A stretch of 19,536 nt of DNA from Candidatus Latescibacterota bacterium (GTDB lineage: Bacteria; JAAXHH01; JABIQT01). How positions within the stretch are numbered: the first letter of the stretch is position 1; the number at the start of each line of letters is the position of its first letter. Under the pieces are notes generated by a model. The model saw nothing but the letters and a program-made list of their open reading frames with translations, searched no databases and was not told the DNA's origin. The DNA is taken from assembly GCA_018667995.1 (NCBI GenBank), contig JABIQT010000311.1:1-19536 (forward strand), in the 5' to 3' direction. Below, in pieces: positions 733-14,355 of the stretch. A program made the translations under genes and the position numbers.

Positions 733-1884
733 TCATGTTTGCCAGCTGAAAGGGTATCCGGGATCTTCCATTTTCAGTGCTACCTTGGTAATTTTGAGGG
801 GATGGAACGTATCGACCATAACCGCCAGTTCGGTAGTCTCCGTCTTGCCCAGGCTTGCTTCCGTGGCTCCTGGCTGCGGTCCATGGGGAATTCCCGCGGG
901 ATGCAGGGTCACGGATCCTTCCTCTATACCGCGACGACTGGCAAATCTGTCATTGGCGTAATATATCATCTCGTCGCTGTCGATATTGCTATGATTGTAC
1001 GGAGCCGGAACAGCGTCAGGATGGTAGTCGAGCATTCGTGGAACGAACGAGCAGATCACATAGCCTTTCGCCTCGAAAGTCTGATGAATCGGGGGTGGAA
1101 GGTGTATCTGGCCGGTGATGGGCTGAAAGTGATTGATATTGAAGGCGTATGGATACACATATCCATCCCATCCAATCAGATCGAATGGGTGGAAGTCATA
1201 ATAGTATGCATGCATTTTTCCGCGTGCAAGTATGCGCACTTCGTGCCGGCCGCTTTCTTCAATCATGTCCAGACTCTCTGGCACCCTGATATCGCGTTCG
1301 CGATAGGGAGCGTCCTCAAGAAGTTGTCCATACTCGTTACGATATCGTTTGGGGACCTCAATAGGACTGGCCGACTCTACCACCAGAATACGCGTGCCCG
1401 GTTCATCCTCTGACAGTCGATAAATCGTTCCGCGTGGAATGACAAGATAGTCGCCTGGTCCATATCGAAGTGTGCCAAAGATGGATTCCAGCGTACCCGA
1501 GCCCTTATGGATATACAAGGCCTCGTCACCATCGGCATTCTTGAAGAAGTACGGCATAGGCTCCGCCGTATTGGCATAGGCTATGATGACGTCACTATTA
1601 TACATCATGGCAATTCGACCGGAAATGGCATTGCCTGAAGGGGGTAAATCTCTCGTCTTCAGGTGTCGATGTTGAAGCCGGTCGTCGTCAGCTGGCACAG
1701 GAGGCCGGTCCTCAAGGCGATCTATGGCCGCCACCTGAGTGGGTAGGTATTTGTGGTATAGCGTTGAAGATCGACCAGAAAACCCGCGAGTACCGAATAG
1801 TTCTTCCCGATACAGTGTGCCATCGGGTTGTCTGAATTGTACGTGGTGCTTCTGAGGCATTTCGCCGAGTCGAACATATCGCAT
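733..1884 (-). CDS. hmgA: Homogentisate 1,2-dioxygenase
   Basis: Cytoplasmic non-haem Fe(II) cupin dioxygenase that opens the ring of homogentisate to 4-maleylacetoacetate, the second step of the homogentisate branch of tyrosine degradation. 383 residues, the shorter bacterial form (the human/Pseudomonas form is about 430-445). Visible iron ligands are H298 and E305 in NHSNIDSDE and H334 in HPAGIPHGP. The E-to-H spacing of 29 is close to the 30 of the human enzyme, but the H-to-E spacing is 7 instead of 6. An upstream cupin strand GPGDYLVIPRGTIYRL lies at 142-157. The ATG at 1884 has AGGAG 9 nt upstream. It starts only 30 bp after the hpd stop, so the two form an operon and catalyse consecutive steps. 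Maleylacetoacetate isomerase and fumarylacetoacetase are absent from the window. Confidence 0.95.
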   Translation of the reverse strand: MRYVRLGEMPQKHHVQFRQPDGTLYREELFGTRGFSGRSSTLYHKYLPTQVAAIDRLEDRPPVPADDDRLQHRHLKTRDLPPSGNAISGRIAMMYNSDVIIAYANTAEPMPYFFKNADGDEALYIHKGSGTLESIFGTLRYGPGDYLVIPRGTIYRLSEDEPGTRILVVESASPIEVPKRYRNEYGQLLEDAPYRERDIRVPESLDMIEESGRHEVRILARGKMHAYYYDFHPFDLIGWDGYVYPYAFNINHFQPITGQIHLPPPIHQTFEAKGYVICSFVPRMLDYHPDAVPAPYNHSNIDSDEMIYYANDRFASRRGIEEGSVTLHPAGIPHGPQPGATEASLGKTETTELAVMVDTFHPLKITKVALKMEDPGYPFSWQT

Positions 1885-1914
1885 GGCACTGACTCCTAAG
1901 TCCTGCGGATTTAC

Positions 1915-3021
1915 CTACAGCGTTCCGCGGATATCTTGCTCCCGTTCTATTGCTTCGAAGAGCGCCTTGAAGTTGCCCACACCAAAGCCCCGCGATCCAT
2001 GTCGTTGGATCACTTCAAAGAACACCGTAGGTCGGTCCTCCACCGGCTTGGTGAAGATCTGCAATAGGTAGCCCTCTTCGTCCCGGTCCACCAGGATACC
2101 GAGTTCCGCCACTCGTGCCATATCCTCGTCAATATTCCCGATTCGGTCTTGCAGGGCATCGTAGTACGAGTCTGGCACAAACAGGAAACTCACATCATTG
2201 TCCGCCATGGCAGACACGGTCTCGATGATATCCCCCGTAATCATGGCTATATGCTGGACACCTGGACCGTTGTAGAAGTCAAGATACTCGTCGATCTGAG
2301 ACTTCCTGACTCCATGGGCTGGTTCGTTGATGGGGAATTTGATCCGACCGTTCCCGTTCTGGACCACCTTGGACATGAGCGCACTGTATTCGGTGCTTAT
2401 ATCATTGTCGTCGAAATGGACAAGTTGGGTAAACCCCATAACGTGTTCGTAGAAGTGCACCCATTCATCCATTTTACCGAGTTCTACGTTGCCGACGATA
2501 TGGTCAATTGCCTTGAGTCCCACGGGCCTTCGGGTTTCTTCTCTGTATCGGGCGGGATCGATGGGACGGTAGCCGGGAGCGAACACTCCCTTGTATTGGT
2601 CGTGGTTGACAAAGGTGTGTCTGGTATCGCCGTAGGTCATTATAGTGGCATATTCATAGATTCCATCATCGTCCTGGATTACGGTGGGCTCGACCACACT
2701 CGTCGCACCCCGGCTGATGGTTGCCTCGTAGGCGGCACCCACATTCTCCACTTCCAGCGCCACATCCTTTACGCCGTCCCCGTGCAACATCAGACGATCG
2801 TTTTCAGGATGATCGCTGTTCAGCGGTGACACGAGGACTAGTGTGATGTGTCCTTGTCTGAGCACATATCCGGCTTCGTTTTTCATACCGGTTTCGAGAC
2901 CCCCGTATCCGATTACATCGAAACCGAAGGCGTTGCGGTAGAAGTAGGCGGACTGTCGTGCATTTCCAACAAAGAATTTGACATAGTCAATGCGTCGTAA
3001 CGGAAGATGATCAGCTGCCAT
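1915..3021 (-). CDS. hpd: 4-hydroxyphenylpyruvate dioxygenase
   Basis: Fe(II)-dependent enzyme that converts 4-hydroxyphenylpyruvate (from tyrosine transamination) to homogentisate, releasing CO2. 368 residues, normal for bacterial HPPD. Two vicinal-oxygen-chelate domains are seen: an N-terminal one (about 10-140) without metal ligands and a C-terminal one (about 170-345). The iron triad is H174 (AIDHIVGNV), H257 (GPGVQHIAM) and E336 (TVFFEVIQR). The C-terminal gate region GFGVGNFKALFEAIEREQ is intact. The ATG at 3021 has a strong GGAGG six nt upstream (GGAGGAATAAC-ATG). It is followed after 30 bp by hmgA, its pathway successor. The alternative in this superfamily, hydroxymandelate synthase, cannot be fully excluded from sequence, but the hmgA neighbour makes HPPD far more likely. 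Confidence 0.97.
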   Translation of the reverse strand: MAADHLPLRRIDYVKFFVGNARQSAYFYRNAFGFDVIGYGGLETGMKNEAGYVLRQGHITLVLVSPLNSDHPENDRLMLHGDGVKDVALEVENVGAAYEATISRGATSVVEPTVIQDDDGIYEYATIMTYGDTRHTFVNHDQYKGVFAPGYRPIDPARYREETRRPVGLKAIDHIVGNVELGKMDEWVHFYEHVMGFTQLVHFDDNDISTEYSALMSKVVQNGNGRIKFPINEPAHGVRKSQIDEYLDFYNGPGVQHIAMITGDIIETVSAMADNDVSFLFVPDSYYDALQDRIGNIDEDMARVAELGILVDRDEEGYLLQIFTKPVEDRPTVFFEVIQRHGSRGFGVGNFKALFEAIEREQDIRGTL

Positions 3022-10159: not shown

Positions 10160-11023
10160 TCAACCAGCTCTCCGCTGGAAAGTGGATTGGTCCAATACTG
10201 ATTGGTTTTCATAGATCGATCCAGCTCGTTCGGCTCCCGGAAGTGGCATGCGGACCGGTACGTCCCTGAGACGCGGCTGATTCGTTGGTTCCCCACGCAG
10301 GATGTTGCTGTTGAAAGCCTCCCAATCGCCACCTCCGGTCAACGGCCATGCATCGATTGCGCAGTATTGAAAGAGTAGCAGTCGCCGAGGCGCGCCAGAT
10401 GTGTTGGGTGCGGAACCATGGAAAGCACGGGCATGATGAATCGAAATGCCGCCGGCGGGCACCTCCACCGAGACCGCCGCCTCATCTGAAAAGGAAGGAT
10501 CCGTTACGGCGCCACAGAATCTGCCGTCCTGGTGGTGGTCCAGTGTAGGGCCCTTGTGTGAACCCGGTATCACCAGTAGGGCGCCGTTCTCAATGGTCAT
10601 GTCATCTATGCATACTCCAACCGCCAGAAGGTCATCATTGGTATGAGGGTAGAATGCCCAATCCTGATGCCACTCCACGGGGCTACCGTACGAGGCGGAC
10701 TTCATGTTCAGCTTGTTTCCATTTGTTCTGATACCCGGGCCGATCAGTTGCGCCACCACATCGAGGATGCCGTCATGACGCAACGTGCTGGCGTACACGT
10801 CATGATGGTCGATTGGGCCCTTCAAACGACGCAACATAGGGCTCTCTGGCGTGTGTCCCGGTTCCAGATCGAAGAGATCTGTATGATCAGTGACTTCCCG
10901 TGACTTCTCTACGAACTCATCCGTCACGCGTCGCAGTTCTTCCACCTCGTGTTCCGACAGCACATTTTCAACCGAAAGATATCCGTTTTCATGGTATGAG
11001 TTGATGCGATCTTGGCTGAGCAT
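10160..11023 (-). CDS. Phytanoyl-CoA dioxygenase (PhyH) family protein
   Basis: 287-residue Fe(II)/2-oxoglutarate-dependent oxygenase. The facial triad is H119 and D121 (VEWHQDWAFYPHT) with H202 (ARAFHGSAPNTSG), and R213 or R214 eleven to twelve residues later should bind 2-oxoglutarate. The N-terminus DRINSYHENGYLSVENVLS is the standard PhyH opening. Bacterial members hydroxylate very varied small molecules, from ectoine to secondary metabolites; real phytanoyl-CoA activity should not be assumed. The ATG at 11023 has GAGGAGG five nt upstream. Upstream is the GH172 gene (138 bp gap); downstream is the SDR. A hydroxylase followed by a dehydrogenase could act in sequence on one substrate, which is inference. 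Confidence 0.9.
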   Translation of the reverse strand: MLSQDRINSYHENGYLSVENVLSEHEVEELRRVTDEFVEKSREVTDHTDLFDLEPGHTPESPMLRRLKGPIDHHDVYASTLRHDGILDVVAQLIGPGIRTNGNKLNMKSASYGSPVEWHQDWAFYPHTNDDLLAVGVCIDDMTIENGALLVIPGSHKGPTLDHHQDGRFCGAVTDPSFSDEAAVSVEVPAGGISIHHARAFHGSAPNTSGAPRRLLLFQYCAIDAWPLTGGGDWEAFNSNILRGEPTNQPRLRDVPVRMPLPGAERAGSIYENQSVLDQSTFQRRAG

Positions 11024-11161: not shown

Positions 11162-12247
11162 TCAGTCGCCTACGTACCTTTCCTCATTCGGTAGTGGTAA
11201 CCGAGCCTCTACTGGCGGCAATGGCGGACCGCCCTGCACCGGTTCAGTCAGATAGTAATAAGACGTACTCGAATAGTCGTTGCTTAGTTTGTTGGCATGA
11301 CCGTGCTCTATCGACATGCGGAAGCTCTTGGTAAATCGAATGGGGTCCTCTACATGGTACCGGTAGACTGTATTCTTCCCTTTCCATCGCCAATCCTCGG
11401 TACCACTGTATAGAATAATACCATGGTACGGGGCGTTATACTCCTGGGTGGGGCAGTAGGCGCAATGGTACCAATCTTCCGTGCCAGTTCCGTGCAACGA
11501 CGGCGGCCAGGACTCGCCGTCGATTACCATCATGTCATCTCCTTCGCCGTACCAATCATTCGGATTCCGCTGGTAGCAGTCGATATCCAGGTGCGCGCCG
11601 CAATATATGCCGCTTCCGACCGCATCGCACATCACGTAGTTTTCGGCATCACTCAAATTCTGCCATCGGTCATCCTCACGATATGCATCTGACGTCAAAT
11701 GTTCCTCGTGAGCCCATCCTTGCGTATTGAGCTCCCGATTCCATTGAACGTGAAAGAAAGCCTGATCTTCGACCGCTGACCGGCTACGATACGATTCATA
11801 GTCGATATAGAAATAGTGAGCATATCCCTCTTCGCCCTGATTCTCAATTTCGATGATTGCCTGCTCTTTGAAAGGCATGTGCCACCAGGAATTGAAGCCT
11901 TTTCCATTCTGTGGGCTCATCTGTAAAGGCGCTGTGATGAAGTTCTTGCGCATACCGTGTCCCAAGCCGAAAAAATCACCAATGGGGCATTCGATGCTCG
12001 GCTTATCCGCCCCATCCCAGAAAATCCGCATTACAATTCGGCGACAGTAGTCTTCCTGGGGAATCCCGAGCGTCATCCAGAGGTGTTTGATGCAGCCGGG
12101 ACCGTTGATTCTGGCAATGGTCTTCCTTTCACCGGCCTCTATACGCCAGAAATCGGCGTTGCCTCCTGACGTATCGTAACTGGAAATACGATGACTGGTG
12201 TACTCCCGTAGCGAGGGTAATGTGGCAAGGCTGGTCTGTCCGATCAT
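11162..12247 (-). CDS. DUF2961 / glycoside hydrolase family 172 protein
   Basis: 361 residues. DUF2961 was reclassified as GH172 after members were found to cleave or rearrange alpha-D-fructofuranosides and D-arabinofuranosides. Signatures seen (numbering from this start): SSYDTSGGNADF near 22-33, RINGPGCIKHLWMT, PIGDFFGLGHG, FNSWWHMPF, then WYGEGDDMMVIDGE with E235 and HGTGTEDWY with E257. The 22-residue spacing of these two glutamates fits the reported GH172 catalytic pair. I chose the ATG at 12247 (MIGQTS) because AAAGGAA lies about 8 nt upstream; the frame stays open to 12358 but the added 37 residues do not look like family sequence. No signal peptide, so probably cytoplasmic. It lies 155 bp after the MBL gene. 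Exact sugar specificity unknown. Confidence 0.88.
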   Translation of the reverse strand: MIGQTSLATLPSLREYTSHRISSYDTSGGNADFWRIEAGERKTIARINGPGCIKHLWMTLGIPQEDYCRRIVMRIFWDGADKPSIECPIGDFFGLGHGMRKNFITAPLQMSPQNGKGFNSWWHMPFKEQAIIEIENQGEEGYAHYFYIDYESYRSRSAVEDQAFFHVQWNRELNTQGWAHEEHLTSDAYREDDRWQNLSDAENYVMCDAVGSGIYCGAHLDIDCYQRNPNDWYGEGDDMMVIDGESWPPSLHGTGTEDWYHCAYCPTQEYNAPYHGIILYSGTEDWRWKGKNTVYRYHVEDPIRFTKSFRMSIEHGHANKLSNDYSSTSYYYLTEPVQGGPPLPPVEARLPLPNEERYVGD

Positions 12248-12402
12248 GGCTGCTTTCCTTTGTGCAAATGATCCCGTGGGATCACATGTTTGCGAAATCC
12301 ACCGGAATGTGGTCTGAGATTCGTAAAGACAATCCTTGGCTATCGCTGATACAGACACCGTTCAATATCGTCATGCAGACAGTCTTGGAAGAGGATCCCC
12401 AT

Positions 12403-14295
12403 TCAGAATTTTGGCAGACCAATCGTCACCAGAGCTTCCGCCACCTGACCAAAGGGTCGTCCGCCAACGGTGAGGTCAAGGGATACAGGGAGCCGGCGGC
12501 ACCGTTCATCCGAGGGTGGCGTGATCCCCACCTTGATCGATTTCTTCTCCCTTGGCCCAAGGATGATCTCCTGTGGATCGGAATGCCAACCTGGAGGTCC
12601 CACAAGTGAAATTCGGGCAGTCTGGGTACTTGGGAATGGGTTCAGGATCCACCCATGGAATTCGATGGGGCCAGCCATGGGAGCATGCGCGCGGTAGGGT
12701 TTGAGTTTTCCGCCCTGAGACTCAGCGCCAAAATGAACGCCATTCTCATCTAACAACATGAGCACGTCGTGTACGTCGTCGAAGGCCTGTGCACCGCGCG
12801 CCACCTCTTCGTACCACTCCGGGCAGGTTCGATAGGGCTGGGTGTGGCCGGTCAGGACCAGTTCGGGTTGGAAATGCTGCAGATCGTCTAGCGTTTTAAG
12901 ATAGCACCCTACGTCCAATCCATTCTTGTAAACGTGATTGGTGAATAACTGTGCACCTGGCTTATACCCCATACCATCATCAGAGGAGAAGAAGATCTGG
13001 TCACCGGTATGAGCTACTCTGGTTCCATCGATTTTCATGCATATGAGGGTAGCGAATCTTGTATGCCCGGACATAGGATAGAGGGTAATGGGTATGTTCT
13101 CCCAGTATATGGTCTCTCTATTGGAAATATGCTTGGATACGGTTATCGGTTCATGCCAGAGGCAAGGTCTGTCGTAGACGGAAGGATGTTCCAAAAGATC
13201 GCTGAACTCCTCTCCTGCCCATACCTCTGTATTAAATACCCGCTGCAAGAGGGGAATGCCATTGACATGGTCGTCATGGAAATGAGACACCAGCACGGTA
13301 TCTATCTTGTCAACGCCAAAGCGCCGTTTCAGACCGCGGAGACCGTGCAGAAAAGGTCTCCTGTTCGATAGATGCTGCTTGCTTGGTGAGAAATAGACCG
13401 ATGTGTTGTAGCCATAATCTATGGCCAGTACGCGACCTGATTCACTAATGACAAAGTGAGTCTCGGCCACCGCGCTCTTGGATCTGTAAAGATGTGGTAG
13501 AACCTCTTCAATGTCATCGTCATCAGGATCACACATTTCCTGCTCCACACCGGCCTGGATCTCACTAAGGCGCCGCAGGTTCGTCTTGTATGTCGCAATG
13601 GCTGAAGCGGGCTCATCCACCGGTTCGCCCAGACTGGGAAATAGTCGATCCGTATTCGCGTCGCGCAATGCGTTGGCCGAATGGTAGAGGTTCTTTGCGC
13701 CCGTAAAGTCATTATAGTCATATTGAAGGGGAGCCAGGCGGGTTGTCTTTCCATTTCCACAGATTACTTCGCCCACAAATCCGAGTTTGCGATCGCCCAG
13801 GTTAACGATGTAGCTGCTGGCGCCGTTGGTTTGGCCAGGCGTTGGAACAACCTCCCAGGTCAACCCACCTATGTCCCGTGTCTCCAGATCCATCATCCAA
13901 TCATCGATTGGCAGGGGACGGATGGGCGAGAAGCGATCCCAGCGGTTGTCGTAGGAATTCCAGTTCTGGCGTTCCCTGAAATGCTGATCAGGATCCGTCA
14001 GATATTCCTGGTCCCAGTAGGGTCCGATTACCTTGACGCCTTTTGCCTTGAGTCGTATTGCGCCATCCGTGTGGTCACGAAAGTGGTGAGTTAGAAGTAA
14101 TGTGACATCCAGCCCCCTGGATATTTCGTCGAGATGATCGGATGCCAAACCTGTCCCTGCATTGACCAGAACAGTCCCAGTCGGCCCTAGGACAGCGTAT
14201 ACGAGACAGCTGTCCTGAAGGCGAAATACTCCGTCCTCAAGTCGTTCCCACGGGGATGTAATGGCCTTGCTCCTTTCGAATTGTAGAGGATCCAT
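12403..14295 (-). CDS. Tandem metallo-beta-lactamase-fold hydrolase with C-terminal beta-sandwich
   Basis: About 630 residues with two MBL folds. Numbering from the ATG at 14295: domain 1 spans about 15-245, domain 2 about 265-505, and a C-terminal Ig-like beta-rich region about 540-630. Domain 2 has a complete ligand set: SHFHDDH (337-343), SGHT with H411, TGDQIF with D432, and TGHT with H484. Domain 1 has THHFRDH where HxHxDH is expected, so the second His is Phe; its TPGQTNG has Gln for the metal His and VGEVIC has Glu for the bridging Asp. It is probably a non-catalytic or differently loaded copy. The frame is open to a TTG at 14313, but ATG is preferred although its ribosome site is weak. 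Substrate unknown; it lies between the HAD and GH172 genes. Confidence 0.85.
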   Translation of the reverse strand: MDPLQFERSKAITSPWERLEDGVFRLQDSCLVYAVLGPTGTVLVNAGTGLASDHLDEISRGLDVTLLLTHHFRDHTDGAIRLKAKGVKVIGPYWDQEYLTDPDQHFRERQNWNSYDNRWDRFSPIRPLPIDDWMMDLETRDIGGLTWEVVPTPGQTNGASSYIVNLGDRKLGFVGEVICGNGKTTRLAPLQYDYNDFTGAKNLYHSANALRDANTDRLFPSLGEPVDEPASAIATYKTNLRRLSEIQAGVEQEMCDPDDDDIEEVLPHLYRSKSAVAETHFVISESGRVLAIDYGYNTSVYFSPSKQHLSNRRPFLHGLRGLKRRFGVDKIDTVLVSHFHDDHVNGIPLLQRVFNTEVWAGEEFSDLLEHPSVYDRPCLWHEPITVSKHISNRETIYWENIPITLYPMSGHTRFATLICMKIDGTRVAHTGDQIFFSSDDGMGYKPGAQLFTNHVYKNGLDVGCYLKTLDDLQHFQPELVLTGHTQPYRTCPEWYEEVARGAQAFDDVHDVLMLLDENGVHFGAESQGGKLKPYRAHAPMAGPIEFHGWILNPFPSTQTARISLVGPPGWHSDPQEIILGPREKKSIKVGITPPSDERCRRLPVSLDLTVGGRPFGQVAEALVTIGLPKF

Positions 14296-14355
14296 TCGAG
14301 AAATGACCTGCAAATTACGTTTCGAATGGTCGGTCCCTGAATTTGGCCGGTTCCA

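Follow-up and report, generated by a model that had tools for sequence, protein, structure and literature searches.

The window analysed here, a stretch of 19,536 nucleotides from the Candidatus Latescibacterota contig JABIQT010000311.1, carries a gene for a 630-residue protein in which two metallo-beta-lactamase (MBL) domains, D1 and D2, precede an immunoglobulin (Ig)-like beta-sandwich (Table 1). The frame lies on the minus strand, with an ATG at 14295 and a stop at 12403-12405; an alternative TTG start at 14313 would lengthen the product by 6 residues. The plus strand across the same interval is crowded with stops. The protein is probably intracellular, since no signal peptide was apparent when its sequence was inspected by eye. 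The gene belongs to a minus-strand run, with a HAD-type hydrolase gene upstream and, downstream, genes for DUF2961, PhyH, SDR, enolase-superfamily, RDD, alpha-L-fucosidase, MFS and PhoX proteins. Because only ~45 bases separate it from each of the neighbouring genes, co-transcription with them is likely. Elsewhere in the window, positions 733-3021 hold a match to the N-terminal domain of homogentisate 1,2-dioxygenase and a gene with two glyoxalase/dioxygenase domains resembling 4-hydroxyphenylpyruvate dioxygenase, a pair that possibly serves tyrosine degradation and lies near the sugar genes.

Table 1. Features of the tandem MBL gene and its downstream neighbours, in window coordinates.
Feature	Position	Strand	Basis
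Whole gene, tandem MBL protein, 630 aa	12403..14295	minus	open frame; full-length homologues
D1, residues 12-250, MBL fold with lost ligands	13546..14262	minus	AlphaFold2 model; PDB alignments; profile match to D2
D1 motif T69-H70-H71-F72-R73-D74-H75, HxHxDH position, Phe for second His	14071..14091	minus	translation; homologue alignment
D1 loop, residues 97-124	13924..14007	minus	entropy; pLDDT
D1 TPGQT, residues 152-156, His196 position = Gln, variable in orthologues	13828..13842	minus	homologue alignment
D1 G175-E176, bridging Asp221 position, Glu fixed in window's clade	13768..13773	minus	homologue alignment
D1 P220-S-L222-G223, His263 position = Leu	13627..13638	minus	homologue alignment
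D2, residues 260-512, MBL fold with complete ligand set	12760..13518	minus	Pfam PF00753; AlphaFold2; structural alignment
D2 H338-F-H340-D-D342-H343	13267..13284	minus	invariant 106/106
D2 H411, His196 position; Gln in 75/86 relatives outside window's clade	13063..13065	minus	alignment
D2 D432, bridging Asp	13000..13002	minus	invariant 106/106
D2 H484, His263 position	12844..12846	minus	invariant 106/106
C-terminal Ig-like beta-sandwich, residues 515-630	12406..12753	minus	separate model; Foldseek; weak NPCBM_assoc/NEW3 match
Downstream neighbour, DUF2961 (PF11175)	11162..12358	minus	profile match; synteny
Second neighbour, PhyH-type dioxygenase (PF05721)	10160..11023	minus	profile match; same order in related genomes

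The initial annotation had described a ligand-poor MBL domain joined to a complete one and followed by a beta-sandwich, and had proposed structure prediction as a check. Residues, alignments and folds all agree with that description. AlphaFold2, run on an input alignment of 58 family members, returned a confident whole-chain model (pLDDT 91.8, pTM 0.90) with two MBL folds and then the Ig-like sandwich. Both halves align to MBL enzymes in the PDB at Z ~20 (residues 11-255 and 259-512, the latter on L1), and Pfam PF00753 matches D2 with an E value of 1.3e-14. A comparison of the D1 and D2 profiles extended over 222 columns (probability 99.9, E 6e-34) and kept the ligand motifs in register, a result consistent with tandem duplication of one MBL domain. 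Modelled alone, the C-terminal 117 residues again gave a beta-sandwich (pLDDT 91.9), with strands between residues 529 and 625 and a conserved HFGAESQGGKL at its start. Foldseek searches with this domain retrieved Ig-like domains, one of them from a sialidase chain (TM 0.68), and pointed to no specific family; the match to NPCBM_assoc/NEW3 (PF10633) reached 14.1 bits (E 0.054), below the cut-off of 24.4.

In a standard MBL site, metal 2 is bound by D120 and H121, and Asp221 serves as the bridging residue. D2 has the fold and the HxHxDH/H/D/H set that define the superfamily, with all seven standard ligands in place (H338, H340, D342, H343, H411, D432 and H484), as the initial annotation had read. 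For D1 the ligand columns were assigned by homologue alignment and not by motif-guessing. H116, D120 and H121 correspond to H70, D74 and H75, the last of these a novelty of the window's clade, and the other four of the seven positions are replaced (H118 by Phe72, H196 by Gln155, D221 by Glu176 and H263 by Leu222), so that D1 is a member of the MBL fold that lacks the complete ligand set. The first three replacements had been recognised at the outset; the fourth, which appears as PSLG where relatives carry PSHG, had been missed. Among 86 relatives outside the window's clade, the standard residues predominate in D1, with His70 in 82, His72 in 81, Asp or Glu74 in 83, His155 in 74, Asp176 in 78 and His222 in 77.

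The history of these changes was followed on a tree of 106 proteins, built by a quick method under LG+G4 with the ligand columns excluded and containing some long branches. Of the seven D2 ligands, six are the same in every one of the 106 proteins; the seventh position, 411, carries Gln in 75 of them and His in the other 31, with two changes on the tree. By comparison, at least one of six D1 ligands (H116, H118, D/E120, H196, D221 and H263) is lost in 39 of the 106 rows, which by parsimony requires at least six changes. The window's clade is fixed (20/20) for H70, F72, D74, H75 and E176 in D1, and neither His at 75 nor Glu at 176 occurs in any of the 86 relatives outside it. The question raised by the initial annotation, whether the replacements are conserved, is thus answered positively for Phe72 and Glu176 and negatively for Gln155, the latter position being free to vary within the clade (V, A, M, C, P or Q); position 222 is L, M or T. 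Because a sister pair, L013/L063, has Phe72 in common with this clade, lacks D120 and H121 and yet retains D221 and H263, the D1 losses must have been stepwise. The Deinococcus pair lost another subset of D1 ligands, and its sister in Nonomuraea kept D1. Distant members (L152, L153, L174, L176 and L180) show other losses, for example Q, N or D for the first His, and these fall on branches apart from the window's clade. Separate trees for D1 and D2 give the same clades, and that for the C-terminal domain nearly so, which rules out a domain swap as the origin of the odd D1. We also considered a rule that D1 ligands are lost where D2 position 411 is His; loss was seen in 24 of 31 rows with His versus 15 of 75 with Gln, and with no independent pair on the tree to support it the association was set aside as phylogenetic. 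Two orthologues have interrupted frames: in a Latescibacterota metagenome-assembled genome (L038:6013-7860) the D1 region is broken by a stop into frames of 188 and 410 aa, which may reflect either faulty sequencing or a disrupted gene, and the L043 orthologue shifts frame near residue 202.

The window protein belongs to a family whose members share common ancestry, the two MBL domains and the C-terminal sandwich. In searches covering a subset of species, full-length relatives were found in 79 of 84 Poribacteria genomes and 13 of 16 Latescibacterota genomes sampled, both phyla being assigned from matching contigs. Two other phyla had such relatives in 24 of 64 and in 19 of 343 genomes. Homologues in named records come from Deinococcus, Nonomuraea, Mesorhizobium, Sinorhizobium and the archaeon Haladaptatus. 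The architecture, initially thought unusual, is therefore not rare, occurring in cultured bacteria and archaea as well as in Poribacteria. The window's own genome encodes two paralogues (L019 and L021) in which the D1 ligands are present apart from H121. The Nonomuraea record NZ_LT559118.1 (L130) is filed as a plasmid, yet at 11.85 Mb, and with only 10 listed features, it is probably a chromosome.

Gene context provides an indication of the substrate. In related Latescibacterota the orthologue is followed by a DUF2961 gene (~75% identical), usually twice, and then by PhyH, as read by tblastn in those genomes with flanks long enough. The DUF2961 gene is a tandem duplicate beside the orthologue in L023-L028 and L041, and single in the window. 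This neighbour is informative because the genome of the window has only six DUF2961 matches and the DUF2961/GH172 family includes glycoside hydrolases (PMC8605356, PMC10115798). The PhyH dioxygenase family (PF05721) is very greatly expanded, with 154 matches in the same 6 Mb genome and any match in only 1 of 14 control genomes; given that number, adjacency to a PhyH gene was rejected as a functional clue. Homologues in Deinococcus are flanked by GH38, GH2, GH100, aldolase and sugar-kinase genes, that in Haladaptatus lies near enolase-superfamily and SMP-30 genes, and that in Sinorhizobium adjoins genes of fatty-acid type, so that neighbours differ among lineages. A search with PADLOC for a role in defence systems gave no match. 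Overall, the context, to which the alpha-L-fucosidase, enolase-superfamily and MFS genes of the window also contribute, suggests carbohydrate or sugar-acid catabolism, and on this basis the likeliest substrates are sugar-derived esters, lactones or phosphoesters.

According to the initial annotation, random variation of D1 among homologues would have indicated plain decay. Instead, the replacements are not random and D1 is under purifying selection equal to that on D2, the dN/dS ratio (omega) being 0.102 for D1, 0.099 for D2 and 0.099 for the C-terminal domain (55 pairs from 11 close genomes of one genus). D1 thus appears to be kept for a purpose other than standard two-metal chemistry. In a non-redundant set of the window's clade, the lowest mean entropy in the protein (0.13) belongs to D1 residues 109-120 (RQxWNSYDNRWD), where 11 of 12 positions are invariant; the HxHxDH block of D2 is next, at 0.14. 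Residues 101-120 are modelled by AlphaFold2 at pLDDT 64-74, the lowest confidence in D1 except for the N-terminal tail. That a flexible-looking loop should be invariant despite low model confidence suggests that it contacts a ligand.

From the duplication, the loss of ligands, the invariance of the D2 core, the conservation of D1 and the predicted folds, all of which were computed, we infer catalysis by D2, a role for D1 and a class of substrate. The explanation we favour, and consider rather better than an even bet, is that D2 is a hydrolase and D1 a retained pseudo-MBL domain that aids substrate binding, with a sugar-derived substrate the likeliest. D2 would be the catalytic centre, its complete ligand set predicting a dinuclear metal site. 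D1 probably packs on D2 much as one subunit of an MBL dimer packs on the other, and its invariant loop may help to bind and position the substrate, by analogy with the action of the tRNase ZL N-domain on tRNA. The clade-only H75 and E176 count against this explanation, since they hint at a remodelled site and not at simple loss, and so do the differing neighbours among lineages.

The remodelling of D1 could have left a site in which one metal is bound in a Zn2-like position by H70, D74, H75 and Glu176, beside a normal dinuclear D2. We regard this as possible, although distinctly less probable than a binding role. The four residues are invariant in the 20 proteins of the clade, the last two being peculiar to it, and they place possible ligands at three of the four standard metal 2 or bridging positions. 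However, H263 has been replaced by Leu, Met or Thr, two of the three Zn1 ligands are absent, and the lack of D120 and H121 in L013/L063 implies that such a site was not ancestral to the ligand-poor forms. A more speculative extension, to which we give somewhat less credence, is that H70, D74, His75 and Glu176 were rebuilt into a mononuclear or acid-base site coupled to the invariant loop for substrate, so that a single duplicated MBL fold would have yielded two unlike active sites in one bifunctional enzyme. It is unlikely that D1 is purely the structural half of an intramolecular pseudo-dimer, devoid of chemistry or binding. MBL enzymes are often dimers, and the repeated loss of ligands on the tree would fit such a role, but the most conserved block of the protein is the lower-confidence D1 loop and not a core strand, and H70, D74, H75 and E176 are retained at ligand positions. 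Decay of D1 under relaxed selection after D2 took over would also account for ligand loss in several lineages; it is very improbable in view of an omega equal to that of D2, replacements fixed across the clade and orthologue identity that matches that of D2. We give least weight of all to the idea that the protein is the bacterial equivalent of long tRNase Z, or a different MBL of the CPSF type that acts on nucleic acids, for although the inactive-plus-active layout is the same (PMC3714273) and profiles of RNase Z and CPSF chains match weakly around the HxHxDH motif, the carbohydrate context, the Ig-like domain and an RNase Z score (TIGR02651) of 18.6 bits against a cut-off of 292.95 all argue otherwise.

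The family forms a natural series, in which paralogues within the same genome keep the D1 ligands, different subsets are missing from sister lineages and the D2 core stays constant. It permits a direct test of how a duplicated enzyme domain abandons standard catalysis and why it is kept, in a setting other than eukaryotic tRNase Z, the best-known example. These proteins also point to a presumed family of hydrolases, as yet uncharacterised, which almost every Poribacteria genome sampled encodes; this phylum is prominent in marine sponges.

A limited literature search of open-access papers found no description of a bacterial tandem MBL protein. The initial annotation had recognised no described enzyme with this layout, but a chain of one inactive and one active MBL domain is known in eukaryotic tRNase ZL (ELAC2) and yeast Trz1 (PMC7785958, PMC3714273). 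As in the window protein, a tandem duplication was followed there by loss of the N-domain ligands, with those of the C-domain kept. The N-domain of tRNase ZL, devoid of metal-binding residues, keeps the substrate arm (PMC3714273), and the inactive half of tRNase ZL/Trz1 is retained for substrate binding (PMC3714273, PMC7785958). Unlike tRNase ZL, the present family is bacterial and archaeal, ends in an Ig-like sandwich and occurs in a context of sugar catabolism, and D1 of the window's clade has clade-specific His and Glu at ligand positions, a His75/Glu176 pattern confined to that clade among the sequences compared. Glyoxalase II and subclass B3 metallo-beta-lactamases provide the nearest curated models and the nearest folds (Z ~20), but these enzymes are single-domain and the protein falls far short of either model (TIGR03413 for GloB, 39.6 bits against a cut-off of 200.8; NF033105, 48.4 against 240). 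Also among the best structural matches is the HARLDQ-motif MBL-fold protein (Cronobacter, PDB 6dn4, and others), in which several ligand positions are replaced; it differs in being a single domain with other replacements and no active partner in the chain. Further counterparts are proteins recorded as 'MBL fold metallo-hydrolase' in Deinococcus, Mesorhizobium, Sinorhizobium and Haladaptatus, which share the tandem layout over most of their length at 25-32% identity. Unlike the window protein, the rhizobial and archaeal homologues keep the D1 ligands other than H121, whereas those of Deinococcus show different D1 losses (Q/P, G/S and partly L).
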